NCBI RefSeq assembly: GCF_023065955.2
Contig: NW_026622874.1
Coordinates: 81,304,917 to 81,368,916, forward strand
Length of the DNA: 64,000 nt
Reading direction: 5' to 3'
Source: Ursus arctos
Taxonomy: Eukaryota > Chordata > Mammalia > Carnivora > Ursidae
This document shows positions 7,729-62,600 of the stretch, one piece after another (the stretch's first letter is position 1; each line of letters begins with the position of its first letter). The notes below the pieces were generated by a model, which saw only the letters and a program-made list of their open reading frames with translations, was not told the DNA's origin and searched no databases. A program made the position numbers and the translations under genes.

Positions 7729-7990
7729 GGCGCGTGAGAACGGAGGCTAGCGAGAAACGTGTTTCTCCACTATTCCCGGCTTCCTCGCCTCTGCCGGCGC
7801 GAGCTGGCTTACGTCATGCGTGCGCGACGGCCTCCCCTAGTCCCGCCTCCAAGTTCCAGCCGGTGCTGCGCGGGGTCCTAGAGCCGGTAGGTGGCAGGCT
7901 GTGGGGAGGTGGTGCGAGGCCCGCCTCTCGCGACGGTTGACGGGCACTTCTTACTGCTCACCAGCCCGTGCTCTCTGGAGTTCCTAGGAA
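7380..7990. promoter_or_regulatory. CpG-island promoter of THUMPD1
   Basis: CpG-dense and GC-rich, in contrast to the AT-rich surroundings. It covers THUMPD1 exon 1 (start codon at 7726-7728) and about 260 bases upstream. No TATA box is evident, as is usual for a housekeeping gene. The plus-strand side has short open frames (7734-7940) that I do not regard as genes. Confidence 0.75.
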
Positions 7991-37500: not shown

Positions 37501-40500
37501 TGCAAATGTATATGTTGGTAATATCATTTTGTACACCCTGTATTATCAACATGGTAATGAGAGGCCTCCCCCAAGATTTCAAGTAACATTTTAGAATGGA
37601 AAAAATTGACAAGGCAAGAAACAACAAATGTTGGAGAGGATGTGGAGAAAGGGGATCCCTCCTACATTGTTGGTGGGAATGCAAGTTGGTACAGCCACTC
37701 TGGAAAACAGTGTGGAGGTCCCTTAAGAAGTTAAAAATTGAGCTATCCTATGACCCAGCCATTGCACTACTGGGTATTTACCCCAAAGATACAGACGTAG
37801 TGAAGAGAAGGGCCATATGCACCCCAATGTTCATAGCAACATTGTCCACAATAGCCAAATCATGGGAGGAACCGAGATGCCCTTCAACAGATGACTGGAT
37901 TAAGAAGTTGTGGTCCATATATACAATGGAATATTACTCAGCTATCAGAAAGAACGAGTTCTAAACATTTGCTGCAACATGGACGGCACTGGAGGAGATA
38001 ATGCTAAGTGAAATAAGTCAAGCAGAGAAAGACAATTATCTTATGATTTCTCTCATCTATGGAACATAAGAACTAGGAAGATCGGTAGGGGAAGAAAGGG
38101 ATAAAGAAAGGGGGATAATCAGAAGGGGGAATGAAGCATGAGAGACTATGGACTCTGAGAAACAAACTGAGGCCTTCAGAGGGGAGGGGGGTGGGGGAAT
38201 GGGATAGACTGGTGATGGGTATTAAGGAGGGCACGTATTGCATGGAGCACTGGGAGTTATACGCAAACAATGAATCATGGAACACTACATCAAAAGCTAA
38301 TGATGTACTGTATGGTGACTAACATATCATAATAATAAAAAAAAGTAACATTTTGCTACTTGGCAAGAAACTATGTAATGCTTCCCTAAATGATTAATTT
38401 GGACAGGAAGTAATTTTAATAGGTAAGACTGATCACTATTAATAGGTTCTTTTATTTTTTATTTTTATTTTTTTTTAAAGATTTTATTTATTTTTTTGAC
38501 AGAGAAAGAGACAGCCAGAGAGAGAGGGAACACAGGCAGGGGGAGTGGGAGAGGAAGAAGCAGGCTCCCAGCAGAGAAGCCTGATGTGGGGCTCGATCCC
38601 AGGACTCTGGGATCACGCCCTGAGCTGAAGGCAGACGGTTAATGACTGAGCCACCCAGGCGCCTCTATTAATAGGTTCTTTTAAAGATAGGGTATGAATA
38701 ATATATTAGCAGAAATTAATTATCTAAGGGTGATGTGTTTAAATAAAGTGCTTCTACTAGGCATGAAATGCTGGCAGTGGGCTTGTTCTTAGAGAGTGCC
38801 TCTAAATTATAGAAAACTGTTAAGCCATGGTAGGCTAATTACTTATTCCCAGATGGAACATCGCTAAGGAATAACCATTGGAATTAAGGACTATAAACAT
38901 TGCTGCATTGCCTGATTAGAAAAGAAAGATATTCTGAAAACTTTGTGTTTTGGTCCTGGTTGTCTGTTTCTTGAAGAACTCCACTGGAGGGGGTTATCCT
39001 TCCCCAGATGGAAAGACAAGCCAGTGTCCAGGGATGACCAGGTATGTGTTCTTCAATCTTCTTTTCCTGAATTGTGAAGTGCATACCTTCCACCCTCTCT
39101 TTAGGGTCTGGACTTAACAATGGTAGAGCCCTAATGATGTACTGTATGGTGACTAATGTAACATAATAAAATTAAAAAAAAAAAAAAAAAGAGTGGTAGA
39201 GCCCGAGATATAGATATGGACACATATAACTATAGAGATACATATTCTTGAAAGTCCATTAATCCTTTGAGAAAATAATAGCTAAAATTTATTCAGCCTC
39301 TTTACACATTTTAACTCATTTACTCCTCATTAATCTTATAGAATCCCCAATATACAGATGCAGAACCTGAGACTCATGGAGATAAAGTGGCTTGTCCAAG
39401 GCCAAGCTATAAGACTGTTTGGCTCCAGGACAGACTCTTAACCATTATACTACACTTACAGTATAATTTATGGCAGGGAGAAGTAGAAGGACAGAAAAGA
39501 TGCATGACTCAATTGTTCCCTTTGGAAAGAAATCATACAACATTTATGTATGTTTTAAAAGGTGCTGGACTGAAGTAGTTAAGTGTGCAGCTCTGGGGTC
39601 AGGCTACAGGGTTCAATCACTGGACTGCCACTTTCCACTCCAGTGATCTTTGGCAAATTATTCATAGATTTTATGGTTTTTTTTTTTTTGGTAGGGATTA
39701 AATAAGTTAAAACATGCAAAACACTTAAGATAGCATCTAGCATTTAGCCAATAAATATTGGCTAATATTACTCTTCAATAAAAACTCTCTTCCAAAGAAA
39801 TGAAAGGAAAAAAATACCTGTCTTCAAGCTGAATGTTATGAATGGTCTCCAGATAGAAGAAAATTATCCAGCATTTAACATGCTTTCATATTTGGTCAAA
39901 AGGGCCACAGATATTGAGATGCCTTGAAAGGCAAAAGCAGAATAATGAAAGGAAGGCAAATAGACAACTAGAATAGTAAACTCATTCTGGGACATTGAGA
40001 GTACACCTGAGCTCTCTATTCTACTGTAACTAATATGATAAAGAAAATCCTTCCTTCTAGACATCGTTTCTTTTCTGCTCCTTTAGGGACAGTTTTAATT
40101 CCAGGAACCACTCAGCTGACCCAGAAAGACATTCTCTACAGACTACAATCTTCGAAAGCAAAGTGCATTATCACCAACGAAGTTTTAGCCCCAGCAGTAG
40201 ATGCTGTTGCGCCTAAATGTGACAATCTGCGCTCCAAGCTAATTGTGTCTCAGAACCCCAAAGATGGGTGCGGGAACCTCAAGATGATGAAGTGAGTAGT
40301 CATAACTGTTGTAAACAGCTTTCCCAAAAGAAAGGCAACATTGAAAAGATATTCAACCCAGAAGTGATCAGAAAAATGAAAATTAAAACAAGGCAAAGGG
40401 AACAACTGGTGATTATTACTGCACTAATCACCTGCAAAGCTCTGAGGCAGGAAGGAGTTTGGAGTGGTTTTTGTATGTTAGGATTTTTTTTTTTTTTAAG

Positions 40501-43500
40501 ATTTTATTTATTTATTCGACAGAGACAGAGACAGCCAGCGAGAGAGGGAACACAAGCAGGGGGAGTGGGAGAGGAAGAAGCAGGCTCATAGCAGAGGAGC
40601 CTGACGTGGGGCTCGATCCCATAACGCCGGGATCACGCCCTGAGCCGAAGGCAGAAGCTTAACCGCTGTGCCACCCAGGCGCCCCTGTATGTTAGGATCT
40701 TGAAGGAAGTAGGCCCTGAGATAGATATTAGTTGTGTAAGAAGTTTATTAAGGATTTGTCCTGGGGTCAACACCCGTGAAAAAAGGGGAAGGATGTGGCA
40801 TTGGGCAAAAGAAGAAATTCATCTGCCATGCACTCCCAGAAAAACCTTCAGCTAATCCACTAGGACCTCTGGGGCTTGGATAGTCTTTCAAAGCTGTTCT
40901 CAGATAAAGCAAAAGGTCCTGGCCTTTATATATCCTTACTGATCCATAACTGAGTGTGGGCTTTCCCTAGAAGGAGGGGTGACCTTGAGCGAGGCAGCTC
41001 TCTTCAGCCAAAGCAATCTCCAAATACGGCTCCCAGCACCTGTGGGGAGTAAGTCCTTTGTTCCGGCAGCAGGATCTAAGAGGGGCATTCACAGCACCAA
41101 CCACAGAACTGTTATCATCTCCCAGAGAAACTGATCATAATCAATTCTTATGTGTAGGCTACATCATTTCCTTGCAGATAGCAACACTTCAGGTTATAAA
41201 TAAGAAGAACACTTAATGTTAATGGATGCAATTATAAAACTAAGTTACACTGATGTTCAGCCCCTGCTATGGAATGCTTCCAGGGGTCACTTAGCACTCT
41301 TGCCAGGTATTGGTTCTACCTTAGCTTTAGGTTGGCAGCCAGTTTCCTCTCTAGAATGAGCTTCCCACCTTTACTCAAGGATTTGGGAGCATATCTGCAA
41401 CTACAGACTTATTCCTACCTCCTCCAAAAGAGCTAACATTTATTGAGCTCTTACCGAAAGCCAAGTACGTTCTAATTAAAAATGTTATAATTGCAACTTG
41501 GGTAACATTTATATGGCATTCGTTATGTGCCAAAAACTGTCCCAAGCATTTCACACATATTAACTCATTTACATGTCACAATAACCTAAGAAGCGGGTAC
41601 TACAGTAATACAGATGAATAAGGTCAAATGCTAGGATCTGGCAGAGCTGGGTTTCAAACCCAGGGAGTCTGGCACCTGAGCTCACGCTCCTAACTGCTAT
41701 GTTTACTGCCTCTGATGGTGAGAGATTGGTATGATAACCTCGCCTTAGGCTTCTATCTACAATAGAAGTGATAGGTACCCAGCTATAGGTACTATTTTTA
41801 AGGAAGAAAATTATGGAATCATACACTAAACACTTAGTCTAGCTTTATTAGACTTTTAAAACAGCTTTTCTATAATTCTTGTGGCCTGGATGTTTTGAAT
41901 TCTAATGTTTCATTCTCAGCCCAATACTCCCAGATAAAATCTCTATGCTTCTTAGGCACTGTGTGTGCGGAATTCACTGCCTCTCAAGTGCCCTAATGTA
42001 TGACCTATTAGCAGCCCAGTTATCCTTTGGAACTACAGCTGATTCTTAAACAATGTGGGAATTACCAACCTGCCTTATACCATTATCCATGACTTCTATT
42101 CACATATTTACTCTCTTAAAAAAAAAAATCACTTGAAAACATCCACAGTAACAGGGAAGGAGGAGTTCTCACATAGCCTTGATTCTAAGATCACAGACTC
42201 CTCATTCTGCTGACGGAATGATAAACCACTGGAGTTTTTAAAAATGCTTCAGCTCTTCTTCATCATACAATAAAAAGCTATGAAACCAACTATTATAAAT
42301 GGGCTTTGATGATAAAATTTAGTGTAATTCCAGAAAGCACCTATGAAGATGGAGAAAGAGATGACTTTTACCTTGGAATTCAACCCAAGTCCCTGGGGCC
42401 TGAGCCATGAGGTGAAGATGTCCGAGTAGATGGTTTCTTGAATTCTCTTCTGGGGTAACAGTTTATGACGCCACATGCAATGGGCAGAATCATTGTAGTT
42501 CTTCCTTTGTAGACACGCCAGTGACAACCACACCTGTGTGAAGACAAAACATGATGAGATGATGGCCATTTACTTTACCAGTGGAACAAGCGGATCTCCT
42601 AAAATGACGGGACACACGCATAGCAGTTTTGGTTTAGGATTATCTGTAAATGGAAGGTAACTTCGCAGAACTCCAGCTTGACATGTCAAAACTACAAAGG
42701 GGATGATTCGTTTATTGGTCTTATAAATGTGTTTTCCTTGTACATATCATGACTATTCTTTGTTTTCCCAGGTACTGGCTGGATTTGACTCCTTCAGATG
42801 TGATGTGGAATACCTCAGACACAGGCTGGGCGAAGTCTGCATGGAGTAGCATCTTTTCTCCATGGATCCAGGGAGCATGTGTATTTGCACATTATTTGCC
42901 ACGTTTTGAGCCAACTTCCATCCTGCAAGTAAGGCAGATCACAAGAGGTCACCATTTAGGAATGCTTTAGCAGCATCCCTGATAGGACTGATGAACAAAG
43001 TAACCTGCAGAAATCAGAGTAGCCAAAGTGATTTAAGATATTTCACATCTGGAAAGTCAATTATCCTGAAAAGACATACAGAAGAAAGGTGTGAATGCAT
43101 TTATGTTAGAATAAACAACGTTTAAGTTGTGCTGTGCCTACCATAAGCATTTAGGGACTTATTACAGTTGTAGGAAGACTAAGAGTTTACTTCTAAATTG
43201 CAGACCCTTTCCAAGTTTCCCATCACAGTCTTCTGTTCAGCACCAACTGCATACCGAATGCTTATACAGAATGATATGACCAGGTAAGAAAGGTTGGTAA
43301 AGAGGCACTTAGTGGGGGTAGGGGAAAGGAAGGGGAAGCCATAAAATAAAGGATCTTTCTGCCTAAAAACATAGTTCCACATTAGTAGGTATGGAATTTA
43401 ACAATCTCTTGTCCCCCTTCTCCTTCTTGCTTTCATTCTTTAAGTCATAATTGTTACGTCCAGGGCAGGCTTCCCCAAGCAAGGAGAGGAAAGAGAAAGT

Positions 43501-46500
43501 TCAGCCATGGGTATACCCTTGAGCCCAGTGGTTATGGATAAAAAGGTGTTTAATCTTTTGGATGATGAATGTTACCTGAACTGAGGAACTACAGAAATGA
43601 CCCCCTATTTGGAATCCTATCCCAGCAAATAGGAAAAAGGATATAAGTCTTTTGCTCTATTACTGATTCCATTTGAAAGAGTGCATTGGTAAATATTTTT
43701 AAATTGCTAAAACTGAAATTTTTTTGAATAGGAAATACTTCATATGACATAAAATTCAATAGGCATATAAGAATATAGAGTGAAAGGTCTTCCTCCAAGC
43801 CTTATTCTCAGTCTCTGTTCTCCTTTTCCATGAAATCTGTGCAAACACAAGCCAATATGCCAGTATTCTCACCCTTTTAAAAACATTAATGGAAACATAA
43901 CATGTTCACGGTTCTGCACCTTCCTTTTTTTGCCTAACAATACATCCTGGAACTGTGTGCTATCCAATTCTATCCAATAGGGTAACCACTTGCCACATGT
44001 AATTACTTAAATTTAATTTTAATTAATTAAAAATTCAGTTCCAAAGTTGCACTAGCCATGTTTCAAGCACTCAATAGCCACACAGGGCTAGAAGATACTG
44101 CAGTGGATAGTGCAGATAATAGAACACTTTGTGGCAAAAATTTCTATTGGACAGCACTGTCTAGGAGCTCCCTTATTCTTTTTTTTTTTTTTTTTACAGC
44201 TCTATAGTATACCATTGCATAAAATTCCACAGTCAATTTAACCATATAATTGATAAATTTTTAATCACTGATTTAAAATGTTATCATGCAGCACCTTCCC
44301 TGAGGATGACATGGCTTTTTTTTTTTTTTTTGCAACAGATCACACACTCCCAAAAAATAAAAGTGGAAAAAAATGGATGTCTTGGGGGTCATTTTATGAT
44401 GTTAGAATTGTTTGTTGATTTTGTATTGGAGAGGGGAGAAAGGAGGGAACTAAAACACACTCTATGTTGAATTTCATTAGAAATAACTCTGATTTTCATT
44501 CCTCCCCATTTTTTCTCCTAAATTTAACTTATCTGCTTTCTGAGAAGCTATAAGTTCAAAAGCTTAAAGCACTGTGTGAGTGCTGGCGAACCAATCAATC
44601 CTGAAGTGACTGAACAATGGAGAAAAAGGACGGGTCTGGATATCTATGAAGGATATGGACAGACTGAAACGGTATAGGACCTCATTGAAAAGACAGGGCT
44701 GGACTTGACTTAGCTGGATAAATAAAAACTGATAAATAAATGTAAATAACTGATAAATAAATTTTAAAATAAGTATTTATTATATCCTTATGATTATGTG
44801 AGGGATAGGGAAGTAGATGAGTGGTTAGAAGAATAGTCAGGAAAAAAAAAGTTGGGAGAGAAGCTAGTTGCAAAAAAGCTCTGTAACAGACAGTTATTTC
44901 ACCATTCATTGAGAAAAGCCACTATAGAGCTGATCAGAGTGAGAGCATTAAAATATATTTTAAGTGAAAGAATCTATAGTGAAAGATTTCTCCTTACGTA
45001 AGAGGGAACTCTCTTAGTCAGGGCTGCCTCAAAAATGGAAAATGCTGAGTTACTTGAAATATTATAAGTTCACTAGATAACTCCTTGGCAAGAATACTCT
45101 AAAAAGGGTTATTTAAAGAGCTTGTAGAAATAAGAATAAGAAGAAATTCTAGAGGAAGTGAATAAACTACTAACAAAACTGGTTATTATGTAAGGAAAAG
45201 GAGGCATACAATAAAGCAGATAAGGGAAAGGCTGAAAGAAATTTTTCATAGTTTGCCTTTTTATAGTGCTTCTATTTATAAACCACGAGAATGTAGTACC
45301 TGGTTAAAATTAAAATTGACAGATGTATTAAATAGGAACAGCATAACAAGTATCATGCTAATATGGGTACAAATGTTTTCATAAATATGGATATTTTAGT
45401 AATTATCAATTTATTAAGTGTTATCACTTTACTATATGTATTTATTTAGTGTCTCTCTCTACATTTCACGAGAGCAGAAAATTTGTTTTATTTCGAGCCT
45501 CGGTCATCATCATAATGATGATCATCAATAAATATTTGTTTAATGAATGCATGGTAGATGAACAGAATTTTAAGCTACCTGTAATGTTACTTTCTCCTTC
45601 TGAACTAGGTGCTAATCTGTGGAAATTTTAAGGGAATGAAGATTAAGCCTGGCTCAATGGGAAAGCCGTCTCCTGCTTTTGATGTTAAGGTTTGCACATC
45701 TCCTTCTAGGAGAATATTTAACAACCCAATCTGTTTACCATTTACCCCACTGTGCCCTCCCCTACACTCCTACTTTTGGTGATGACTTCATGCTACTTCT
45801 ATGATATTTTAATTTCCATGTAATGGAAATGGATTAGGGACATTAGTTTAATGGTCTCCATTTTTTTATTTTTTGCAAAGTAGTTTCTTGTGCCAAGCAG
45901 GTCTAGGCATTTTATAAATATCAATCTATTTGATTGCCAGAAAGAACCTGTGAGAGACATACCAATATAAGAACCATTTTACAATGGCTAAAGGGAAGTA
46001 GGAGACACAGGCTTCCAGTTATAGAATGAGTAAGTTGCAAAGATAAAAGATACAGCATAGGGATATAGTCAATGGTACTGTAATAGTATTGCATGGTGAC
46101 AGAGGGTAGCTACACTTGTGGTGAGCATAATACATAAACTTGTTGAATCACTATGTCGTACACCTGAAACTAATATAACATTGTATGTCAACTGTACTTC
46201 AATAAAAAATTAAAGAACCATTTTATAGATGAGGCACAGAGAGGGAAAGAATTCACCAGAGGTCACACAGCTAGGAGCTACTAGTGCTGGGATTCAATCC
46301 CAAGCAATCTGGTTCCAATATCTGTACTTTTTTTTTTTTTTTTTTTAAGATTTTATTTATTTATGTGACAGAGAGACAGCCAGCGAGAGAGGGAACACAG
46401 CAGGGGGAGTGGGAGAGGAAGAAGCAGGCTCATAGCGGAAGAGCCTGATGTGGGACTCGATCCCGGATCGCCAGGATCACGCCCTGAGCCGAAGGCAGTC

Positions 46501-49500
46501 GCTTTAACGACTGCGCTACCCAGGCGCCCCCAATATCTGTACTCTTAACCACAACACCACATTGCCCTCTCTGATAAGGGAGGTCAAGACCTTCTAAGGG
46601 GTTCAAGTAGGCCAAAGGAAGGTACAGTTTACAGTAGCTGAAGTATTTTTTTCCTTCCCCAGCCCTTCCTGGCCATTTCCTGGCTCTCTGTAACCATGGC
46701 TGTTATTACCACCTGATCCCTAGGGAGCATCCTATTATCCCATCTGCACACTTAGTACAGGGTTAGAATTGTTCTCAGATCAGCAGACCCAAAGCTAGGT
46801 ATAGTCAAAGGAACTTACACTAATACATAAGAGAAAACCACAGCATAGCAACAAAAACACAAAATGGATGAATTTACAGAATGGAGCGCTCAAAATCAAA
46901 CCTAAATGAAGGGTAATTATAGATGAAATCAATGTTCCCAAGGTTTTCTGATCATAAGGATTACATGGACACTTGTTAAAAAATACTAATTTTCAGGACC
47001 CTTCTAGGTGGGACCCTGAAATCTGTGTTTTAAACAAGCATCCCAGTTCTTATGATCAGGTAAGTTTGAGAAAGTTAGAGTAAGTTTGAAATGGATTGCT
47101 GATATCAGTGTATAGAATAAGCCAGATCTGAGTTCTTTCCCTCACTTTAACTTTGCTGAGAACCTTGTCTAAAGATGGGCTGGCCTGGTGGTTCAGGTCT
47201 GGCTCTGAGCTTCATGAGCTGAGTGTCTTTGGCTGAGTGTCTTTGGGGAAGTTATTAAAGTCTCAGTTTCCTGATTTGTAAAATAGGGAATAGGGTGACC
47301 AACTTGTCTCAGTTTGCCGGGGACTTACTTGGTTTTAGCATGGAAAGTCATACATCCCAGGGACACTCTCCTGCCTCAGTCCTGGGCAAACTGATGGTTG
47401 GTTGCCCTAATAATAATGGAACTGATACCATAGGTTTCTTGTGAGGATTAAATAAGATAATATCTCTAAAGAGCATAACAAAGTGCTCAGCACATAATAA
47501 AGGTCTAAAAGACAGGTGTCATTATTATCATTCATTTCTCCCTTGCATTCCCTTCCTTTGAAAAGCTTTTCTAAGAAGAGATGGTAGGGGAGCCCTGGTT
47601 ACATTCTGTAAAGAGGCTTAACAATAGTTCATTGGTTTATAGGCTGCCTTAGGTTGGAGAAAGAAAAATTAGTAATTAAGCATTATCATGTCTGCATTAT
47701 AAGTAATCAAGCTGGCATTTCACAAAGCTGTGTTCCTTTCTTCCCTCTTAATGACAATTCCCAATATGCATTGCTGTGAAGGTCTCACAGGTGCAGCTGT
47801 ACTCAGAGCGATCCAACAGCAGTATCTCACCACCACCCCACTAATTCAAGCCCAGTGGTTTTCTGGGGCAATTATATTTGAATGCAGAAAGGGTGTGGCC
47901 AAGAGGAGAACTGCTCTGTCATGCATTCCCAGTTAGCATTACTACCTTCATTTTTCCCCAATCTTAAATTATAATAAAATACACATAAAATGTACCATCC
48001 TGACCATGTTTACGTGCATAGTTCGGTGGTATTAAATACATTCATAATATTGTGCAACTATTACCATGATTTATCTCCATAACTCTTTTCATCTTATAAA
48101 ACTGAGACTCTGTATTTATTAAATAATAACTTCCCATTCCCCAATGCCCCTAACCCTGGCAACCACCATTCTACTTTCTACCTCTGCAACTACTATTTAT
48201 AAGTACCTCATATTAAGTGGAATCAGTGTGTGTTTGTCTTTTTGTGACTGGCTAATCACACCTTAGCATAATGTCCTCAAGTTTCATCCATGCAGCATGT
48301 GTCAGAATTTCCTTTCTTTTTTAAGGCCGAATAATATCCCATTGTATGGCTATAACAAATTTTGCTTTTCCATTCATTTGTCGATGGGTGCTTGGGTTCT
48401 TTCCACATTTTAGCTATTGTGAATAGTGCTGTGATCAACATGGGTACACAAATATCTCCTCAAGACCATGCTTCTAATTCTTTTGGGTATATGCTCAGAA
48501 GTAGAAATGCTGGGGCGCCTGGGTGGCACAGCGGTTAAGCGTCTGCCTTCGGCTCAGGGCGTGATCCCGGCGTTATGGGATCGAGCCCCACATCAGGCTC
48601 CTCCGCTATGAGCCTGCTTCTTCCTCTCCCACTCCCCCTGCTTGTGTTCCCTCTCTCGCTGGCTGTCTGTCAAATAAATAAATAAAATCTTTAAAAAAAA
48701 AGAAGTAGAAATGCTGGCTCATATGGTAATACTATTTTTAATTTTTTGAGGAATTGCCATACTGTTTTCCACAAAGTGGCTGTACCATTTTACATCCCAC
48801 AACAGTGCACAGTGCCCAATTTCTCCACATCCTCACCAACACTTATTTTCTGTGTTTCTGATAGCAGCTATCCTAATGGGGGTGAAGTGGTATCTTCTTT
48901 TGGTTTTGATGTGCATTTCCCTAAGGTAGCTACTTTCATTTTTATCTTTTCCCCCAAGGGCTCTTATTACTGCTCTTGTTTATGTAGCTAAGAGCATCTG
49001 CAATGACAGCATGGCATCTGGGGATGTGCTCCAACCAGCTGGATATCAGATTCTTGCAACTTCAAAGCCCAAAGCCCATAATTTTCATGTTTAAAGATTT
49101 TTAAGGCCACTTGAACAATAAAGAATGAGAATCTCTCCAGAAATAGAACATTTTGCCTCTTCCCATCTATTAAAGAGTAGTCTAAGTATCTGGAACTCTG
49201 AAAACATCTCCTTTCCATCAGTAATTTCTTGATTCTGGAGCCAAATGTTCTTTAGATGACTGGGCGGGAATTTATATTTTTTTATTTACAAGAACTTTAA
49301 AGTAAGATTTTGCATTTAGAATTCCTCAGCCTTTCAAGTTTCCCTTTGGGGACACAGCCCATTTCCATTTGGAAAGTGCCAAATAAGTATTACACCCTAT
49401 TTTCCACACAAGCCACATCTCAGGTTTGAAGGCTCTTGGTGGATGTATATAAAGGCAAAGTAGAGAGTTCATATGTAAAGACAGCTAAAAGTTATTTAAG

Positions 49501-52500
49501 GCAAAATCTGGTACATGAGTTAAGTAACCAATCTGAAAAATGTTAATCTGGGTTTTTAAAAATTGGATTGAACTCCCTGGAAAGATTCTATAGAGAAGTT
49601 TAGTGATAAAAAGGGCAGGATCTGGAGTGTGATTGCTTGAGATTTGAATTCCAGCTCAGTCATATACTGTGTTGCTTAAACTCTGCACCTCGGTTTCCTC
49701 ATATGTAAAATGAGTGTAGTAATAGTGCTAACCAGATAGGGCTGTTGTAAGGACTAAAGAAAACAATACATGTGAAGTACTTAGAGCTGTAGCATTTATT
49801 ACTTGGAATGCAGTCAGGGCCTATGAAATGCTAGCTGCTGGAAGGTACTTCACTGTTAGGTACTTCGGGGAACCAGGAAGACTGGGGAAAAGGTAAGAAA
49901 GCAAGGCTTCTGGCATACTCACCAGTGTCTCAACCAGAGAACATTCCCCTTTCTCTGCTTACTTATATTGGGCTCCTGAAGTAAGGTTTTATTTGTTCTA
50001 CAGTTAAACAAAGTTTGAAAACCACTAATGAAATATTTACTTGAGAGTAAAAGATAACCAAGACATATTGCAAATTGTAAAAGAAGGTTGTAAAACAGTA
50101 TATTATAAAGTGATCCTATTTTTTCCTATGTCTATCTATATTGTCTCAAAAGATATCACCAAAAATGCGATTATTGCTAGATAGACTTAAAGACAATTTT
50201 TATTCTTCACATTTTGCTAACTTGCATTTTATAATATATTTTACACTAAGAATTTAAATAAACACATTTTCTTGGGAATTTAAAGTATACTTAATTTTTT
50301 TTGAAGTCTGCATTCTTAAATGGCAAAATTCAAAACAAAACAAAGTAAAATTTTAACATGTACCTTTACATAAAAATCTCCTTAAATAAATTGTTCTATT
50401 TTATCCTAGATTTAGATGTAAATGGCAATGTTCTACCTCCTGGACAAGAAGGAGATATTGGCATTCAAGTTCTACCTAACCGACCGTTTGGCCTTTTTGC
50501 TCATTATATAGTAAGAGACTTATTAAATAACCTCTTATTTCCTATTTATTTCTCAAAAGTGCTTGGTAACTATCCCTATTTGCCACAAAACACACCTAGG
50601 ATAGGTGCTTGGACTTTTCTTGAGAGATTCATTGTCCTGAATAGTAATGCCTCAGAGAGGAAACTGCAGAAACACCTAAATGCTTGTTCTCCCTGGGCTA
50701 GATCATTGCTCCAGGCTCATGAAGGTAAGAGAAGTGAGCCCTAGAAAGACAGCCCTTTTTGTATACACTGATCCTCTACATGATAAAACAGCACCTAATC
50801 ATTTTCCTGAAATCTGATTAGTGGTCTTCCTTCTTGAGTGAAAGGTATAGAAAATGTGCAGTGAGATTAAGAAATGTTTTTCACTAGAGGCCTTCCAAAT
50901 TCCCTACTGTTTGCAAACCCATTTTCACCTCTAATGGAAGTATACAAATTGTAACAAAGTTTACATTGATATAATCAAAGGTCCAGGTTCTACTCGTCAG
51001 TGAATTTTTTAAGTTTTTATTTTATTTTTTTTAAGATTTTATTTATTTGGCAGAGATAGAAAGAGTACAAGCAGGGGGAGTGGCAGGCAGAGGCAGAGGG
51101 AGAAACATGCTCCCTCCTGAGCAAGGCACCCCATGCAGGACTCAATCCCAGGACCCTAGGATCAGGACCTAAGCCAAAGGCAGACACGTAACTGACTGAG
51201 CCACCCAGGTGTCCCAACTTGTCACTGAATTTTACATAATGTAACAATACTTCCTTTTTCCTCCTGCCAAAGTTACAGAACCAGTTCTCTGTTTTTGTGT
51301 AAAACAACAAAATACAAAAACAAAGTTTATTCTTTGGTTTATTAGGTGCTGGTGCTTTCATTTAACTCTTGAGTATTCACCTCTCTCTTTCCCTACCTGT
51401 ATTAAACACCTAAAAGACTTAATTAGCCCACACTCTGGATCTCTGAACTCCTGCAGTGTTTAGTGATCCATCAAAGAAAATTCTCAGGGGGTGCCTGGTG
51501 GCTTAGTTGGTTAAGCATCCAACTCTTGGTTTCCTCTTAAGTTGTGATCTCAGGATCCTGAGATTGAGCCCCGTATTGGGCTTTGCACTCCACATGGGGT
51601 CTGCTTGAGATTCTTTCCCTCTCCCTCCCTCTGCCCCTTCCCCACTCCCATTCTCCCTCAAATAAATTTTAAACATCTTTAAAAAAGAAAAGAAGGGCAC
51701 CTGGGTGGCTCAGTCAGTTAAGCATCTGCCTTCAGCTCAGCTCGTGATCCCAGGGTCCTGGGATGGAGCCCCATGTCGGGCTCTCTGCTCAGTGGGGAGT
51801 CTCCTTCTCCCTCTCTGTCTGCCCCCCCCCCACCATTTGTGTTCTCCCCCTTGCTCTCTCTCAAAATGAATAAATAAAATCTTTAAAAAAGAAAAGAAAA
51901 TTCTCACGATGGCAGCATGCCTAGTCTTTGTAACTGTAGTTTACCTTTCTTTGCTTGGGCTAGCTCAATGCTGGAATTTCATCCTTATTTCATTTGCTGG
52001 CTCCTCTTCATTCCAAGGTTTCTCAAAAAAACCACTTTTTTTCCCCCTTGAACATCTAAAAATCCAACCAAACAGAAGAATCACATTCACAGTAATACAA
52101 ACAAAATGCTATTTGTTTCACAGGATAATCCTACAAAAACAGCTTCAACCCTACGAGGCAATTTCTACATCACTGGGGACAGGGGCTATATGGATGAAGA
52201 TGGCTATTTCTGGTTTGTTGCAAGATCAGATGATATCATATTATCTTCTGGGTAATTTTTCATCTGCGTATATGTCTACATTAATTGATCGTCGTGTTCT
52301 GGAGTGGACCTGCTGCTCACTTTTATAAATTCCTGTCATATGTTTTATTTCCCAGTTACAGAATTGGACCATTTGAGGTAGAAAGTGCCCTGATTGAGCA
52401 TCCTGCAGTTGTAGAGGCAGCAGTTGTCAGCAGCCCAGACCCCATCAGGGGAGAGGTAAAAAAAAAAAAAAAAAAAAAAAAGATTCATTTCCATTTTATA

Positions 52501-55500
52501 ATTTGTTGGCAGTCTAACGCATACTTTTCAACAATTCATCGAAACAGAATTACCCAAATGATTCACTCACTAACTGCAAGCCAGAGTCATTAGTAACTAT
52601 GCTAGTCAGAAAGAACTGCTAAAAATAAGACTGAAAATACGTATAAGGAATTTGAATCCTTTCCATAGAGGGATGGTGTGAATGCCAACAACCCAGGCTC
52701 ACAACAGGATAGGATGCCAGATGTCAGCTAGATAGGATTAAGTTATTACCCAAGTCTGGAAACCAACATGGTCTCTACTGTAGCTGAGGAGGATAGGCTG
52801 GCATCAGATATCAGGGGTGGAAGGAAGGTCAGAGATAGGAACTGAGGTGACCAGAAGTAGGCTGGGTACGTAGACAAGTGGAAGATTCAGGAAATAAGCT
52901 GTGAATAAGACAGTCCTTAATAGCTCATTCCTTTTTTTTTTTTTTTTTTTTAAAGTAAGCTCTATCTATGCCCAATGAGGGGCTTGAACTCATGACCCCG
53001 AGATCAAGAGTCACATGCACCCTTGAAAGTTCATTCTTATTGGGGCTGATCAGAGGGTAGTTTGAGTTTAAAGTTTCCACGCTACTCTTCGGGTCCCCTT
53101 TGCCAAGCAGGGCCTCCAATATTCCAGATAGATGAGAGAGAGAATTGATTCTGTGATTACTGAAGTTTATCCTTTCACTCTGAACTCCACCGGTAGTATC
53201 ACAATGTTCTTTGGAATTTGAAGACCATAAGTCACTATTGGACTTACGCAATGATGGAAATGTTCTATATCCACACCACTCGATACAATACACACGGCTA
53301 TAAGGCACTTGAGATGTGGTTGGTGTGACGGAGAAAATGTTTATTTCATTTTAATTAAATTTAAATAGTTACATGTGGCTAGTGGCTACCATATTAAGTG
53401 GCACAACTGTAGACTTATAAAAATGCAGAGTTTTGCAGAGAATTTTACAGAAACTTTGAAGCCGATTTAAGGATTTTAGTTAAAAGAAAAATCTTGTACT
53501 TCTAATACTACTACTACTAATACATAATATTTCTGATGACTTATTCTGATGTTCCGGGTATTATAAGCCCTACACAGGGCCTGTATAGGCCCTATTTAAT
53601 CCTTACAACCTCTCTTTTTGGAGAAGGAAACAGGCACAGAGAGGTATCCTAACATTCTACACAACGAAGTGTGATTTGAACCCAGGCCATCTGACTCTAG
53701 AGTTCATGCCCTTAATCATGTTAGCGTGCTCCATATTAATTTATGACCTTCTGTAATGGTGTATAAACATTTTTATAGGGGCACCGGGGTGGCTCAGACA
53801 GTTGAGCATCTAACTCTTGATTTCAGGTCAGGGTCATGAGATCAAGTTCTGAGTTGGGCTCTGCACTCAGTGTGGGGTCTGCTTCAGATTCTCTCCCTCT
53901 GCCCTTCCCCCGACTCCTGCGCACACATGCACTTGCGGTCTCTCTCTAAAATAAATAAATCATAAAAAAAAACTTTTATAAAGATACAGTAGACGTTATC
54001 CAAGGTGTAGAAGTCATCAATATGCAAACCAGTAAGTATAAACATTAGTTCTTAAAATAATCTGCCTCTGAATGATTCACTTATAGCAAGGTTACATTTT
54101 TTTAATTCATAAAAATGTTGATAAAGCAGAAGAGCCAGTATAAACACAAAAACATTTTATGAAATATTAAAAAATGGCTTTGATAAAATTATAGAAAGAT
54201 AGTCCAAAAACTGGGCAGGGCAGGATTTCCCAAAACATTTCAAGGAATGAAAACAGGATTTGTGAGCATAAAGTAATGAAGTCCTCCCTGTCTCCTGCCA
54301 ATTAGAGAGCAAGGACCACCACCATTTTCTACTCTTGCTTCTCAGGTTCAGGTAAATTGGTCAGAATAATAGCAAAGGGGCTGTTGGAATCTTCACAGCC
54401 TTATATCAACATAAGTATCTCTGAAATGAGGAGTGCACAGCATCAATGAACTGTTCCTTTCAATAAGAATATAGCAAACTCAGTGTGAATACTCTTTACA
54501 AGGGCCACACTGAGAGGTGGGGACCAAGAAACTAGGCTAGATCAGGCTAAGATGTTACCCAAGAGGCTGTGCTTAGTGCATTGTTGAATTTCTAAAAGGA
54601 ATTTTTTTTTTTCTAAAAGGAAATTTTCTTGAAGGAGATGAGGCAAGAAGTCAAGAAAGTCAAAGAAAGATGAGGCAAGAAGTCAAGAGCAAAGACAGCT
54701 CAGAAACAGAAGGTCAGAAAGCAGAGTTCAAGATGTAGTTAGATGAGAAAGTTCTAGTTCATTAAGATCATTAACAAAGCAGGGTTCCCAGAAACCCTCT
54801 TGTATTACAGAACAGGAGTTATGGGACTCAACTGGCTGACTTAAGAGCACAGAGCTGGGATCAAACCCTATGAAGCCTTCTGGCCCACCCCAGCAGGCAC
54901 TTAGATTCCCAGTTAGAGAAAGTAAAGAAACACACTAAAACATAAAAATATACAACTCATCTTCCTGGTGTTTCAAATATTTTTTTCAGGTGGTAAAGGC
55001 TTTTATTGTTCTGACCCCTGATTACAAGTCACATGATCAAGAACAACTAAAAAAGGAGATTCAAGAGCATGTAAAAAAAACTACAGCACCTTACAAATAT
55101 CCCAGGAAGGTAGGTATTCTAATTATGATGACAATTTGCTTAGTGTTCTGACAAATTTCAGCTGTTTTTTTTTTTTAATTTTAATGAACACTCTCCTCAA
55201 ACATGCTACACAAAATATTCCAAACTGAACTAATGACATGGATAAGAAGCAGAATCTTTGAGATTAAAATGGAACTCTTGACATAATTTGCTGGGTCATT
55301 TGGCTTACTGGACTTGTAGTAAATACTAAATATCAAGCAACATCTCCTCAACAATACCCCTCTCCCTTTTTGGTTGCTACCAAAACCCACCAGATGGGTG
55401 TCCTAATTCTTTCACCTAGAGATAATAAAACTGCTATATAACTGACTTTGTCTCAAGATGAAAACTTCTGGGCTAATTTTTTCCCTTGATACCAACAGGT

Positions 55501-55585
55501 GGAATTTGTTCAAGAGCTGCCAAAGACTATCAGTGGGAAGATAAAAAGAAATGAACTGAGGAAGAAAGAATGGGAAACAATTTAA
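34503..55585 (+). CDS. ACSM3: ACSM3, mitochondrial medium-chain acyl-CoA synthetase, with frameshift
   Basis: ACSM3 uses ATP to join butyrate/medium-chain fatty acids to CoA in the mitochondrial matrix. Coding exons with GT/AG borders: 34,503-34,721; 35,260-35,470; 40,087-40,291; 42,513-42,656; 42,772-42,928; 43,204-43,283; 44,548-44,671; 45,609-45,689; 50,410-50,510; 52,124-52,251; 52,356-52,455; 54,990-55,109; 55,499-55,585. I chose ATG 34,503 because [16 protein letters not shown] matches the human start; the GTG-led frame upstream is not a plausible start. Adenylation motifs seen: [10 protein letters not shown] (A3), YEGYGQTET (A5), [17 protein letters not shown] (A7), [12 protein letters not shown] (A8) and [11 protein letters not shown] with the catalytic Lys (A10). 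Intact, the protein would be 585 residues. The exon at 50,410 is 101 bases where 102 are needed, so the given sequence stops at codon 409. Gene identity is very sure; its coding status is in doubt. Confidence 0.93.
35720..36612 (+). repeat. L2 LINE
   Basis: L2-like 3' ORF/UTR features: 'ctctccattgcctaccaggt', 'tgtttcctgtgcttggaaag', 'aatgtcacttctcaggcaac', ending 'taaatgctcagtaaaatatt' and 'tgttgaatt'. It lies in an ACSM3 intron. Confidence 0.7.
36700..37580. other. ACSM3 intron, nothing specific seen
   Basis: Unique-looking intronic sequence up to the L1 target site at 37,581. Confidence 0.4.
37593..38342 (+). mobile_element. 5'-truncated L1, about 750 bases
   Basis: Holds the last part of L1 ORF2 plus 3' UTR, ending 'catcataataataaaaaaa'-like A-rich sequence. 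A perfect 12-base duplication aagtaacatttt lies at 37,581-37,592 and 38,343-38,354. ORF2 C-terminal codons are open from 37,596 to 37,964 (for example [31 protein letters not shown]), so it is a fairly young copy. Confidence 0.93.
38455..38664 (-). repeat. CAN-SINE, reversed
   Basis: Perfect 19-base duplication (ctattaataggttctttta) at 38,436-38,454 and 38,665-38,683. Body and head are of the younger subfamily. Confidence 0.95.
39132..39193 (+). mobile_element. Extremely short L1 insertion (62 bases)
   Basis: Only 'taatgatgtactgtatggtg' plus about 25 more bases of L1 3' end and a poly(A). It is identical in its first 24 bases to the L1 end at 38,299-38,322. A perfect 11-base duplication tggtagagccc is at 39,121-39,131 and 39,194-39,204. 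Confidence 0.9.
39272..39435 (-). repeat. MIR, reversed
   Basis: 'ttttaactcatttactcctc', 'atacagatgcagaacctgag', then 'tcttaaccattatactac'. It lies in an ACSM3 intron. Confidence 0.65.
39570..39770 (+). repeat. MIR
   Basis: 'tctggggtcaggctacaggg', 'tggactgccactttccactc', then 'agggattaaataagttaaaa' and 'agcatctagcatttagcc'. Confidence 0.6.
40485..40685 (-). repeat. CAN-SINE, reversed, young subfamily
   Basis: A 13-base duplication tgtatgttaggat is at 40,472-40,484 and 40,686-40,698. The body is nearly the same as the copy at 58,761, which points to recent activity. Confidence 0.95.
41490..41705 (-). repeat. MIR, reversed
   Basis: 'cacatattaactcatttaca', 'ggcagagctgggtttcaaac' and 'cctaactgctatg' match reversed MIR. 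Confidence 0.65.
43700..44330 (-). repeat. Old L1/HAL1 3' end, reversed, split by MER58
   Basis: 'tctatagtataccattgcat' and neighbouring bases resemble the reversed old L1/HAL1 end. It lies in an ACSM3 intron. Confidence 0.45.
43955..44166 (-). repeat. MER58-type hAT-Charlie element, reversed
   Basis: 'aagcactcaatagccacaca' and the end 'tctattggacagcactgtc' match reversed MER58. Confidence 0.65.
45982..46212 (+). mobile_element. 5'-truncated L1MA-like 3' end
   Basis: 'caggcttccagttatagaat', 'gatatagtcaatggtactgt' and 'tgtcaactgtacttcaataa'. A perfect 13-base duplication aagaaccatttta is at 45,969-45,981 and 46,213-46,225. Confidence 0.88.
46329..46529 (-). repeat. CAN-SINE, reversed, young subfamily
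   Basis: A perfect 14-base duplication ccaatatctgtact is at 46,315-46,328 and 46,530-46,543. Confidence 0.95.
47160..47530 (+). repeat. MIR split by a small palindromic element
   Basis: 'agtctcagtttcctgatttg' on the left; 'gtgaggattaaataagataa' and 'aagtgctcagcacataataa' on the right. Confidence 0.65.
47291..47409. repeat. Small inverted-repeat DNA element
   Basis: Ends tagggtgaccaac and gttggttgcccta are inverted repeats with two mismatches. Inner blocks (tcagtttgcc... / ...gggcaaactga) also pair. It looks like a non-autonomous DNA transposon of about 119 bases; the family is not named. Confidence 0.6.
47963..48930 (-). repeat. Old L1 fragment, reversed, split by a CAN-SINE
   Basis: Reversed L1 ORF2/3' features: 'ccattgtatggctataacaa', 'tagctattgtgaatagtgct' and 'ggaattgccatactgttttc'. 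It lies in an ACSM3 intron. Confidence 0.75.
48514..48700 (+). repeat. CAN-SINE, forward, young subfamily
   Basis: Head 'ggcgcctgggtggcacagcg'. A perfect 17-base duplication agaagtagaaatgctgg is at 48,497-48,513 and 48,701-48,717. Confidence 0.96.
49605..49800 (+). repeat. MIR
   Basis: 'ttgaattccagctcagtcat', 'tcggtttcctcatatgtaaa' and 'ttgtaaggactaaagaaaac'. Confidence 0.65.
50410..50510 (+). other. ACSM3 exon with one-base deletion
   Basis: The acceptor 'ttttatcctag' is normal and the donor is gtaagag. The exon opens 'atttagatgtaaatgg'. The family reads I-V-D-V-N-G here, which needs 12 bases to the G of AAT-GGC's context, but only 11 are present. The first frame therefore gives ATT then TAG. 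From the third codon on, the other frame encodes [19 protein letters not shown] without a stop. Confidence 0.8.
51009..51219 (-). repeat. CAN-SINE, reversed
   Basis: Body with 'tgcaggactcaatcccagga' and reversed head 'gagccacccaggtgtccc'. Flanks share gtca(g/c)tgaatttt. Confidence 0.9.
51487..51892 (+). repeat. Two CAN-SINEs in tandem
   Basis: First head 'gtgcctggtggcttagttgg' at 51,490; second head 'gggcacctgggtggctcagt' at about 51,695. A perfect 14-base duplication aaagaaaattctca at 51,473-51,486 and 51,893-51,906 encloses both. The second copy sits in the A-rich tail (aaaaaagaaaagaa) of the first. Confidence 0.9.
52458..52481 (+). repeat. A24 homopolymer at an ACSM3 splice donor
   Basis: The donor of the exon ending 52,455 reads gag|gtaaaa and continues directly as 24 adenines. 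Confidence 0.95.
52930..53022 (-). repeat. Short CAN-SINE variant, reversed
   Basis: T-tract, then 'gaggggcttgaactcatgac' and 'gagatcaagagtcacatgc'; the head is truncated. Confidence 0.75.
53235..53412 (+). repeat. MER58-type hAT-Charlie element
   Basis: 'caatgatggaaatgttctat' and 'gtggctagtggctaccatat' match MER58. Confidence 0.65.
53530..53725 (-). repeat. MIR, reversed
   Basis: 'tatttaatccttacaacctc', 'gtgatttgaacccaggccat' and 'catgcccttaatcatgttag'. Confidence 0.65.
53779..53968 (+). repeat. CAN-SINE, forward
   Basis: Head 'gggcaccggggtggctcaga' and A-rich tail after 'aaataaataaatcataaa'. Flanks share a ttttata-type duplication. Confidence 0.9.
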
Positions 55586-56684: not shown

Positions 56685-59600
56685 TCAATTCCTCATTGAA
56701 GGTCTGAGTCTCAATGAATTTTTAGTAGAAAAATTTACATTTCTGTCACAAATATGGCTTATTTCTGGGGAACTAAAAGTGAGTCCCCCTGGGGAATGAG
56801 ACAGAACTCTGCTGTTGGCTCTCTCCTTTTGAAGTGTTTGTTCCCATTTGAAATAACCACAACATTTTCTGTTTTCTTGGTATTTCCCAACTGGGCAACA
56901 ATAGAAGACTTTTCCATGGTTTGGGCCATTATTAGAAACAACAAGTCTCTTAGATCTTCGGCCACACTTGCATAAAGGCGGTGTCATTTTCCCACTCTTC
57001 CAAGGCTCTTGCGGGTTAACTGTAGAAGCTAAGATAGAGGGGAGGACCTTCTGGGAACAACTTCTCACTGGGGAGCCATCAGATGATGTAGGCTTTTCTT
57101 CATGAACAGTGAGGATCTGTTTTTTTGCTGATGGGAAAGATAGAGGACTGGACAGACTCCTTTTAGTACTCCTTTTAGTACTATCTAAAAGGAGGGGATA
57201 TTTCCCCAATACTGAAGGATGGGACATAGTGGCATTAACACTGTTGAAGCTACTTGGTTTGCATTCAGGTAATTTAAAGTCAGAAACATCCGAATCTGGA
57301 TCTTTGGCTTCTTTCACGTGATAAATAGTAGTATGTGGACTCTTATATACAACAGACTTAGAGGTCCCATATTTTTGAGGAGTTTCTTCTGTGCCTTCTT
57401 TTAAAACCATTAATCTTTCTATAGAATTAAATGAAGTGTCTAAGTTTGAGTCACTAATGGAAGGTACATAATCTATACTCTGCTCAGGCTGAGATGCTGG
57501 CAGTAAAGCTACATCCTCCCAATCAGCCAACATAGGTAAACAATCAAGAGCATAACTCATTTCTGTATCAGAAACATGATTAACAGATGAAATGGTAGTT
57601 GATACAAGTACCAATTCTGAACCAACTGCTGAAGACTTAGATTTGGCATTAAACGCAAGGTGTTCGTTTCTTACGTGCTTCTGCACAGGTGTACTCAAGC
57701 TGGCAGATGGCAACTGCTCCAGAGAAGTAGAGGATTTTGTATTAAAAAAAGATAAATAGCTTTTGCCATTGTGAAGACCTGCTTTTACACTGCTCTTTAG
57801 TTGGAACTGATCTTGCTGTACCTTTATAGGAGAATTCACACCAACTGACCTCATTTGAACTTTTCCATGAGAATTTTCTGTATTTTTAGGCTCCCTATCA
57901 TATGTGCTCAGACCCTGAATGCTACTCTTGCAGGCTGATCTTTCTTCAACTTGATTCGTATTCAAATTTCTGGCCAAAACGCTGGAATTCTTCTTAGTGG
58001 GCACCTATGATTCCACAGACAAATCCAATAGCTTTAGAAACTATGCATTTGTAATCTTTTTAGTACACAGTATATGATTTGACAAAAAAGAAAAATGTCA
58101 TCATTCATTGATTTATCAATTATTCCACACATGATATCTATATTTCAATGAACCTATGATTACTTCTGGAGTTTGAGGTGACAGAATAAAGAGGCAAGAC
58201 ACCACTAACCTTGTTCAAGAACCTTGTAATTTTCATTAAGCAACCATCCCTGATCATTTTCCAAGCAAGTAGGGCAGTATTCCGAGAATCATCCAACCCT
58301 GAGGAAACAGATATCAAACACGGAATTTAGTAGTACCAGTGTAAAGAAATATAGCAAAAATAAGAAATCACAATTTATATTGGAACATACTATTAGTTTT
58401 ATGATCATCTACTAATTTTAATCGTGATAAATTGGATTAGCACATGCTGTTGCAACCTTACCAATGAGAGACAAGATCTCCCACATTTACAGAAGAGATA
58501 AAAATTTGTTACAGTTCTCAAAAAGGTAAGCAACATTCTGTAGGGACCATGCTTTGTGAGTAATCCAATGGCCTTGTTCAGTTTTTTCACGAATTCGCTG
58601 TGTTGTTTGGGCATTTGTTTAATCTCCATTTGATTTAGCTCATTTTTATTCTTTTTTACAACTAGAAAGCCACTAGATGGCAGTCTTTATCTTATACTAC
58701 TTTACAGTAGTATAATTTGAAAGTCAGAAATCTTTGAATTGTATAGATTAGGAACTTTTTTTTTTTAAAGATTTTATTTATTTATTTGACAGAGATAGAG
58801 ACAGCCAGCGAGAGAGGGAACACAAGCAGGGGGAGTGGGAGAGGAAGAAGCAGGCTCATAGCGGAGGAGCCTGATGTGGGGCTCGATCCCATAACACCGG
58901 GATCATGCCCTGAGCCAAAGGCAGATGCTTAACCGCTGTGCCACCCAGGCGCCCCAGGAATTTTTCTTAGCTTGAAAGGATAGTCCTTATTAATGACATC
59001 ACCAAAACCATGAGATTCATATGAAAGACTTTATAGAAATAAGATGACTTACATAGTAAAATTATTTTCAATTTATACTAACCAGAATGTTCTCGTCCTA
59101 AGAATTGTATTCCCACTTCCTGCAGGGCACCACTAAGTCCTTTTGGTTTTCTTCCATAGAAAATCTAACCAAACGAAAGAAACATATCCAAAAAAAGGTT
59201 ACTATTAGAAAGGTTATGTATTAACCATTTACTTTTCATAATTTTTTGTTCTATTAGATTTGGAATGTACTTATTTTATTGTCATTTTTCATAGTTTAAG
59301 AAATGTATTTATGTGAAAATTTAAAATAACATTCTATTTATGTAACCTATACCATGTATGGGATGAAGTTTAATCATTTTTCAACAGAAGGAAAGTGACC
59401 ATGCCCCCATCTTTGACCCTTACCTTGTAAGTGACTCTGAGATCAATCCAAGAATTTAAGAACACGGGTTTTAACAGTTGTTTTCTCTTACACTCATACT
59501 CCAGGCAAACCCCCAAGTCCCAGTCTGCATTAAGGATATTAAAATAGAACAAATTCAGTGATGCCAGCAGTTTTTACTCATGCTATCGTTTATAAATAAA

Positions 59601-62600
59601 AGGTCGAAATATTATATAAAATAAGATTCAGAAAGACGTAATATATATAATACTATATAGTATACTATCATCACGTGCTATATACTGAAGTGTAATATGT
59701 ACTATATATAGAATGTAAGCTATACTGTATTGTATATACTATAACAATATACTATATAAAACAAGACAGTAGGATTTAATTGCTGTTAATATCTAACAAT
59801 TATCCACTTTACATAACTTACCATTAAGAAATTATGTTGGTAACTAAGTTTCTAAATGATTTCTTAAACACCCAATTAAACATACTGAGTATTTCAGAAA
59901 GAAGAGTACGGTCAAGTTACAAGGCCACAAGGAGAAGGTTATCTGCTTTTAACATTCTAGAAAATACTAATGTAATTGGAAACCAGACATCTTATAGAAA
60001 CCTGAAACCAAAAATACGACTATCGATGGCACAGCATTGCTATCAACGACTATTAATGGCAATGCTATAACACAGGCATACAAAAGATCTACTTTAATGG
60101 CCTATTTTTCCTAGTGTGAAAGTTTAAAGCAAAGGATGTGAGTTGAATGAAGACTCTTTTTATTCAAGGTTGTAGAAAGTAGCATAAGAGTTTTCACTAA
60201 ATCATCTTTGCTTGGAGTCAGAAGAACAGGGAGGAACAATCCAGAAAGATTCTTAAAGTTAAGTCTTAAAAAATTTTTAAGTATCCCAGAATGGTAAAAT
60301 TTGAAAAATATGAATAAATTTACTTTCCTTGGTTAACATCTGTCAGGCACTGAGATTTCTCTTCGGGGCGTAAGAGGTTAACAAGTACAATTCTTCCTAC
60401 AGATAAAGAATTACATAGTGGTAACTCTACTCATTTATGATTGATAGATATGACTTATTTTTTACCTGACCAAGTAACAAATGCACATAATTTTACTTCG
60501 GAATTAGGCAGATCTGGAATCCCAGTAGCAAAAATAATTTTCTTCTCTTGCTGAATCTTCTGAATCCATTTACAGAACTGAGATAAGCAAATCCTCAGAG
60601 GGACTCCTTCATCAACCTGAGCCTGAGTAAAGTCACAAAATCTGAATTCAACAATCGAATTCCATAATTATTGAACACATCATTAGCACATAATTAGGCA
60701 CTATAGGGGGATATAAAAAAGAAGAGGTTCTGGGTGCCTGCGTGGCTCAGTTGGTTAAGCATCTGCCTTTGGCACAGATCATGAGCCCAGAGTCCTGGGA
60801 TCACGTCCCGCATCCAGCTCCCCACTCAGTGGGGAGTCTGCTTCTCCCTCTGCCCCTCCCCCCACTCGTACACACGCTTTTTCTCTCGCAAAAATAAATA
60901 AAACCTTTTTTAAAAATTTACAAAAAAAATATACTAATTAAATCCTGACTGACAGAAATTTGATGTCACTTAATTTCCATGAAGTAAGTTTGACATTCAT
61001 TTTTACAACACTATTTTATCTAATTTTTAAAGATTCCAACAGAGTGCTGGAGGGAACATTATTTCTAGCAGTACACAAATCTAATTCCAAATGGTATATA
61101 CTTTTTATTTTCTTTTAAAAACTGATTTCTGAATTTTAATATTTGCATCATACTTTCTTGGGTTTTGTTTGGGGGGGGGCAGGGTGAGAAGAGAGGTAGG
61201 GAAAAGAGAAGGGCATACCTGTTTTATGCCTGTGAGTTCCATGCAAAATTCAGAAAGAATTGGATGTTCTTGAGGCTGAACGTAAGCATGGAACTCAGAT
61301 TCAATCTCTCCAGTTGATGTGTTCAGCAATACTGCTGGAAATTCAACTACATGAAAGAATTATCAATTGACACTTAAATACAAAATTGTTAAATTAATGC
61401 TGTAATCACTCTAAACATATTTCGCCATCAGATAGCATTATTAAACAATCATTATTTCAGTAAAAGCTTATTAAAATGACCAAAGCAGTGTGATATAAGT
61501 TATAATAAAATTATGCCAAAGAATAAGCCAGAATATTAAAGTTATCAGTATTTCTACTTAAAACTCTTGAATATATTTCCATAATTAAATATGAAGACCA
61601 TATGGAAGTTAAAATATACTCCTTTTTGCAAAGGTATTTTTTCAGTTCCTATGCAATCGAGATTTTGTATGGAATTCTAAGATAATTATTTTATATGATA
61701 CTTTTAGATATTAGGTTTTTGTTCTTTTTTTGTCGAGTCAGGTTTTACAGTAAACTACCAATTCACAGGGCATCTTGTTTTCTTTAAACTAATTGTTGAC
61801 TATTAAAGTGACTCCTCCAGGGCTGGCTTTGGCCACTAGAAGTCCAGACTTACTTATTTCTTGGCTCTGGTGGCGTTTCCCATCATTCCAACATGTGGAC
61901 TCAAAATCAATGACAATTAAGTAGTCAAAGAACTGCTCTGCAAAAACAAAGGGTATCCTTATGCTTTATCAATGTTAAAAGTGCAAGGATACAAAATGTA
62001 AAGAAATGAAGCACACTACTTACTGGATTTGCTTCTTCCTAGATTTCCATTTGCTGGTGCAACTGACTTTCTTCTAATTAATCCAAGCTGCCTAAAAATG
62101 TAAAACAACCCAATATGTTCAACAAACTCAGTCACACTCCTGTTGGAATATGCTAACAAACTAATGGTATAACCCTCATTATTAATGTATTAATGTGAGT
62201 GACAGGAAATTGAACTAGGCTTTGAGAGCTGAAGACCTTGGTTCTTATATGGACTGCCACCCTCTCTTAATAGTCATTTCACCTGCCTCAAAGTTCATAT
62301 TTGCAAACTTAGACTAATTCCTTCTGCTTTCCTTATTTTACAGTAAATACTGAGGAACTTGAGTGATTGCAGAGGTAAAGATGTATTGAAAAGCTTATTT
62401 TCTGCCTTTGCATTTTTCAAGCCCTTGCTACGTGCACAGCCCAGTTCTGAGGAGATACGGCTGATCCAGTCTTCCAGGAGCTCAAAATACGGCTGGGTAA
62501 AGAAACTAGACATCCATGGCAAACCACTGTAAAGTAATATATGACAAAGGATCCGCAAAGGCAATAGTTGAGTTCATAGAAAGGGATGAGCCTAATGAGG

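Follow-up and report, generated by a model that had tools for sequence, protein, structure and literature searches.

The window analysed here, a 64-kb stretch of brown bear (Ursus arctos) DNA, carries an acyl-CoA synthetase gene on its plus strand from 34503 to 55585. Its 13 coding exons are bordered by a THUMP-domain gene to the left and by ERI2 to the right (Table 1). A protein search with its read-through translation, in which the broken codons were written as XX, places carnivore ACSM3 at the top among the best 120 of 7999 scored matches. Within that set the first six matches are all carnivore proteins, with 92-96% identity and 100% of the query covered. By these full-length best matches, the gene is ACSM3, a medium-chain acyl-CoA synthetase of the ANL superfamily. 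Mammalian ACSM3 is flanked by THUMPD1 and ERI2, and the flanks in the window agree with this order, the left neighbour being taken as THUMPD1 from its THUMP domain and position only. The corresponding search for ERI2 returned no Ursus entry among the best 120 of 410 matches. GT/AG borders are found at all 12 introns separating the ACSM3 coding exons, an arrangement that rules out a processed (retrotransposed) pseudogene, and the 12 coding exons other than exon 10 are all open.

Table 1. Features of the ACSM3 locus and its neighbours, in window positions. Exon numbers 2-14 presuppose a single non-coding first exon.
Feature	Position	Strand	Remarks
THUMP-domain gene, left neighbour	3036..7746	-	THUMP domain; outer bounds set by eye
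ACSM3 exon 2	34503..34721	+	coding part, from ATG
ACSM3 exon 3	35260..35470	+	
ACSM3 exon 4	40087..40291	+	205 nt; shorter by one codon (Glu) than its counterpart in almost every retrieved relative
ACSM3 exon 5	42513..42656	+	
ACSM3 exon 6	42772..42928	+	
ACSM3 exon 7	43204..43283	+	
ACSM3 exon 8	44548..44671	+	
ACSM3 exon 9	45609..45689	+	phase 0 at its end
Cassette exon, 63 nt	46997..47059	+	counterpart of the extra segment in black bear models X1 and X4
ACSM3 exon 10	50410..50510	+	frameshifted; 101 nt versus 102 in relatives; TAG at 50413-50415
ACSM3 exon 11	52124..52251	+	in-frame junction with exon 9 if exon 10 is skipped
ACSM3 exon 12	52356..52455	+	
ACSM3 exon 13	54990..55109	+	
ACSM3 exon 14	55499..55585	+	carries the normal stop codon
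ERI2, right neighbour	56688..62099	-	matched in pieces to P0134 residues 6-679

Exon 10 breaks the reading frame of this otherwise homologous gene and gives the ACSM3 copy a disabling change. The exon has AG/GT borders, starts in phase 0 and is one base shorter than its counterparts. In the protein rows where it can be measured, the exon 10 segment comprises 34 residues, the exceptions being P0001 and P0080 (55 residues, with an extra 63-nt exon) and P0132 (28 residues). The eight coding exons upstream total 1221 nt, or 407 codons; ATT (codon 408) and TAG (codon 409) come next, and the product stops after 408 residues, reading K-I-TAG. Both the one-base deletion in this exon and the ATT TAG stop after codon 408 had been proposed in a preliminary description of the DNA, and both are confirmed. 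Carnivore proteins with exon 10, black bear included, start this segment with I-L-D, and I-V-D occurs mainly in primates, so the family code I-V-D-V-N-G assigned earlier to the exon start does not hold for carnivores. The ancestral sequence was likely ATT TTA GAT, whose four consecutive T residues (T4) were reduced to three (T3).

The consequences described for the deletion, namely truncation, loss of the C-terminus and expected mRNA decay, follow from the sequence. ACSM proteins carry a catalytic lysine motif near the C-terminus, and in the window copy a continuous frame through both AMP-binding domains to this lysine is absent, with the stop at codon 409 intervening whenever exon 10 is included. 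The last base of the TAG lies 95 nt upstream of the exon 10 end, beyond the usual 50-55-nt rule for nonsense-mediated decay, and four further coding exons lie downstream; decay of exon-10-containing mRNA is therefore expected. Two other statements need correction. Exon 10 is not the sole exon of unusual length, as exon 4 is also 3 nt short. The intact length of 585 residues holds for a read-through of the window copy, whereas P0002-P0006, five models from carnivores that include exon 10 and end in the usual C-terminus, have 586-590 aa.

Alternative splice sites do not repair the frame. Sites were scored with simple weight tables from recall, keeping positive-score sites and single shifts, over 50200-50504 for acceptors and 45615-45899 for exon 9 donors. 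None of the six alternative acceptors or three alternative exon 9 donors with a positive score restores the frame; transcripts with a frame-keeping acceptor had been named beforehand as an observation that would speak against truncation. Shifts of the exon 10 donor would fall downstream of the TAG. Cassettes of 20-300 nt were also assembled from sites with scores higher than 4 (43 acceptors, 26 donors), and two of them, 46579-46606 and 46579-46621, restore the frame on paper. As a repair these two are weak and hypothetical, and such an insert occurs in no bear protein row. The 63-nt cassette exon, with the donor CAG/GTAAGT and a first codon for Asp in the window versus Ala in black bear, is unable to repair the frame because its length is divisible by three.

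Skipping of exon 10 keeps the frame, predicts a protein of 551 aa and is the most plausible in-frame outcome as judged from the sequence. Translated without exon 10, the window copy is identical to P0007, 'ACSM3, mitochondrial-like isoform X1 [Ursus arctos]', over 551 of 551 residues, the match by which the analysis assigned the window to brown bear. A bear protein ending at residue 408 does not occur among the best 120 of 7479 matches to the 408-residue query. Exon skipping was not considered in the preliminary description, yet it is annotated in the database for the window copy.

Models without exon 10 are found across relatives as well. In a set of 133 proteins, which are cluster representatives among the matches listed for the read-through and 408-residue queries, exon 9 is joined directly to exon 11 in 27. 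Exon 10 is present in 102, partial in two, and absent through different ends in the remaining two (P0121 and P0122). Twenty-one of the 27 skipped models are labelled X2, X3 or X4 and four are unlabelled; only P0007 and P0008 are called X1, as expected if neither sequence allows a full-length form. The X2-X4 models of felids, elephant seals, mustelids, horses and others share the 9-11 junction and the 34-residue gap with the window copy, but their numbering implies a longer form, whereas a full-length form of the window copy is impossible.

The exon 9-11 models extend across mammals, and a pigeon protein (P0054) is among them; skipping of exon 10 is thus either common or commonly predicted. A humpback whale ACSM3 model marked 'LOW QUALITY' (P0126) lacks two residues at the exon 10 start, exactly where the bear base is lost; a stretch of residues near the missing exon 4 Glu is also absent from it.

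Ursus arctos has further ACSM3 models. P0010, 'ACSM3 isoform X2 [Ursus arctos]', has 552 aa, also lacks exon 10 and lies on a contig of 104,128,533 bases, equal in length to the contig of P0007. By database custom the label X2 implies a longer X1, and a longer X1 is thus implied for the P0010 locus. In view of P0010, a new loss of ACSM3 from the animal, one of the options offered earlier, is too strong a reading. P0008, from a contig of 57,977 bases, differs from the window product only at residue 287 and lacks both exon 10 and the exon 4 Glu. At this position the window copy has Ile, in contrast to the Val of P0010, P0008 and black bear. P0010 combines the Glu with Thr190, Trp205 and Ser394, versus no Glu, Asn190, Cys205 and Pro394 in the window copy.

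The codon missing from exon 4 follows residue 209 and encodes Glu in 119 of the 133 proteins among the matches listed, with another residue in 10 and no residue in four. These four comprise the brown-bear models P0007 and P0008 together with P0115 and P0126, whose rows contain larger gaps; the codon is present in black bear and P0010. At residue 205 (40269-40271) the window copy shares Cys with P0008 and black bear, whereas an invariant Trp occupies this position in 35 aligned ACSM3 proteins, and Trp is also present in 14 of the 14 outgroup rows compared. With Cys205 common to the window copy and black bear and Trp found in outgroups, the pattern fits a history in which the window copy corresponds to the black-bear gene and P0010 branched off earlier.

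The comparison with American black bear (P0001), like those with the brown-bear sequences P0008 and P0010, is one of protein models, and it bears on the age of the deletion. P0001 reads Q|ILDVNG at the exon 10 start, and in both P0001 and P0080 exon 10 is in frame after the 63-nt cassette. Black bear exon 10 should be intact, because a 101-nt exon would put N-A-T, never Ile, before Leu. At the level of these models, the window copy equals P0001 except for the exon 10 frameshift, the Glu, residue 287 and the cassette exon, and this near-identity argues that the loss is young, in agreement with the recent origin suggested for it at the outset. Dog P0002 (586 aa) and black bear P0001 have the same exon-encoded segments and both Pfam domains, with 94% and 96% identity, respectively, to the read-through protein. 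Unlike dog and black bear ACSM3, the window copy lacks one exon 10 base and one exon 4 codon.

The segment encoded by exon 10 aligns with residues 390-420 of human ACSM2A chains of solved structure. Across 79 full-length proteins, 14 of its 32 columns are at least 95% conserved, and only two of the 13 coding exons (range 0.766-0.960) have a lower mean conservation than its 0.856; measured in this alignment, exon 10 is constrained yet not outstanding. Without it, the Pfam AMP-binding match ends at profile position 354 versus 373 in dog and scores 198.2 bits versus 223.5. Because black bear ACSM3 with its cassette reaches no more than 201.4 bits, this drop is weak evidence alone. AlphaFold models reach a mean pLDDT of 41.3 for the 551-aa form (36-row alignment) and 44.0 for dog ACSM3 (35-row alignment), values useless for judging the fold. 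With 34 residues missing near the end of the AMP-binding domain, the 551-aa protein is probably inactive. It might still be in use, given that most coding exons are better conserved than exon 10 and that skipped models make up 27 of the 133 proteins listed.

On balance, the frameshift is probably a recent event that inactivated one of two ACSM3 copies in the brown bear. The loss of one base in exon 10, probably germline and from T4 to T3, precludes a full-length enzyme from the window copy. Transcripts containing exon 10 end at codon 409 and should be destroyed by nonsense-mediated decay, and those skipping it stay in frame and would yield the 551-aa protein, 34 residues shorter and probably inactive. 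Judging from the protein models, the loss would postdate the split from American black bear, and it would probably be tolerated because of a putative second ACSM3 copy. Duplicated genes in which a frameshift has recently turned one copy into a pseudogene are a known general class, and the window copy likewise combines one disabling change, an otherwise healthy gene and, probably, a related copy. It departs from that class in retaining a predicted in-frame isoform, so complete silence is not implied. The event looks like ordinary lineage-specific decay of a single copy, not loss of the enzyme.

The same observations can be read in other ways, beginning with the quality of the sequence itself. 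An assembly or base-calling error, already raised in the preliminary description, would mean a true exon of 102 nt and an intact ACSM3. One base altered in a short stretch of T, with the other 12 coding exons open, fits such an error, but T3 or T4 is no long homopolymer and the adjoining ERI2 matches its seal relative. P0007 and P0008 weaken the idea further, as they come from two contigs, stand one residue apart and are both X1 models without exon 10, while the other labelled skipped models (21) are X2-X4; they may nevertheless derive from one animal and one annotation and are not fully independent. An error therefore appears improbable. The deletion could instead be real and segregating, a loss-of-function allele with an intact version of the window copy in other brown bears. 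The otherwise intact copy agrees with this, and Ile287 and Val287 indicate that two versions of it exist; both known versions, however, lack exon 10 in a model labelled X1, and this leaves segregation a minority possibility.

Duplication and function allow further alternatives to a recent loss in one of two copies. False duplication could have kept two haplotypes of a single gene, P0007 and P0010, apart on one scaffold, one allele broken and the other intact. The two proteins differ outside exon 10 at four residues and one missing residue, each ACSM3 match occurs only once in the 64-kb window, and no long direct repeat of ACSM3 was found within 33000-57000. So many amino-acid differences are, in our judgement, high for alleles, Cys205 in the window copy and black bear but not in P0010 fits an older split, and the database name '-like' treats P0007 and P0010 as two genes; haplotypes of one gene are thus a conceivable account but not a probable one. 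It is doubtful that the copy is not lost but locked into an exon-10-less isoform with a job of its own. The symmetrical exon 10, its frequent absence among the listed proteins, its modest mean conservation and the open remainder of the gene would suit such a role, but nearly half of the exon 10 columns are strongly conserved, its loss takes away part of the AMP-binding domain, and models are no proof of protein. Highly improbable, finally, is a pair of ACSM3 genes of which the one between THUMPD1 and ERI2 makes only an exon-10-less non-catalytic or regulatory partner, or in which the loss of activity serves reversible insulin-resistant winter metabolism.

Acsm3 knockout mice are described with glucose and lipid abnormalities and a build-up of hepatic lauric acid (PMC10897460), and because of these metabolic effects ACSM3 dosage in a hibernator is worth knowing. 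A true loss in a hibernator would be interesting; the second copy would make a true loss unlikely. Among the titles and abstract openings listed in a literature search, none concerns ACSM3 loss in bears. The locus also illustrates that a database model with a skipped exon can conceal a broken exon. Elsewhere in the window, open pieces on the minus strand at about 870-1412 resemble, by eye, a transposase-derived reading frame, and open pieces on the plus strand at about 23996-26660 resemble, again by eye, LINE-1 reading frames.
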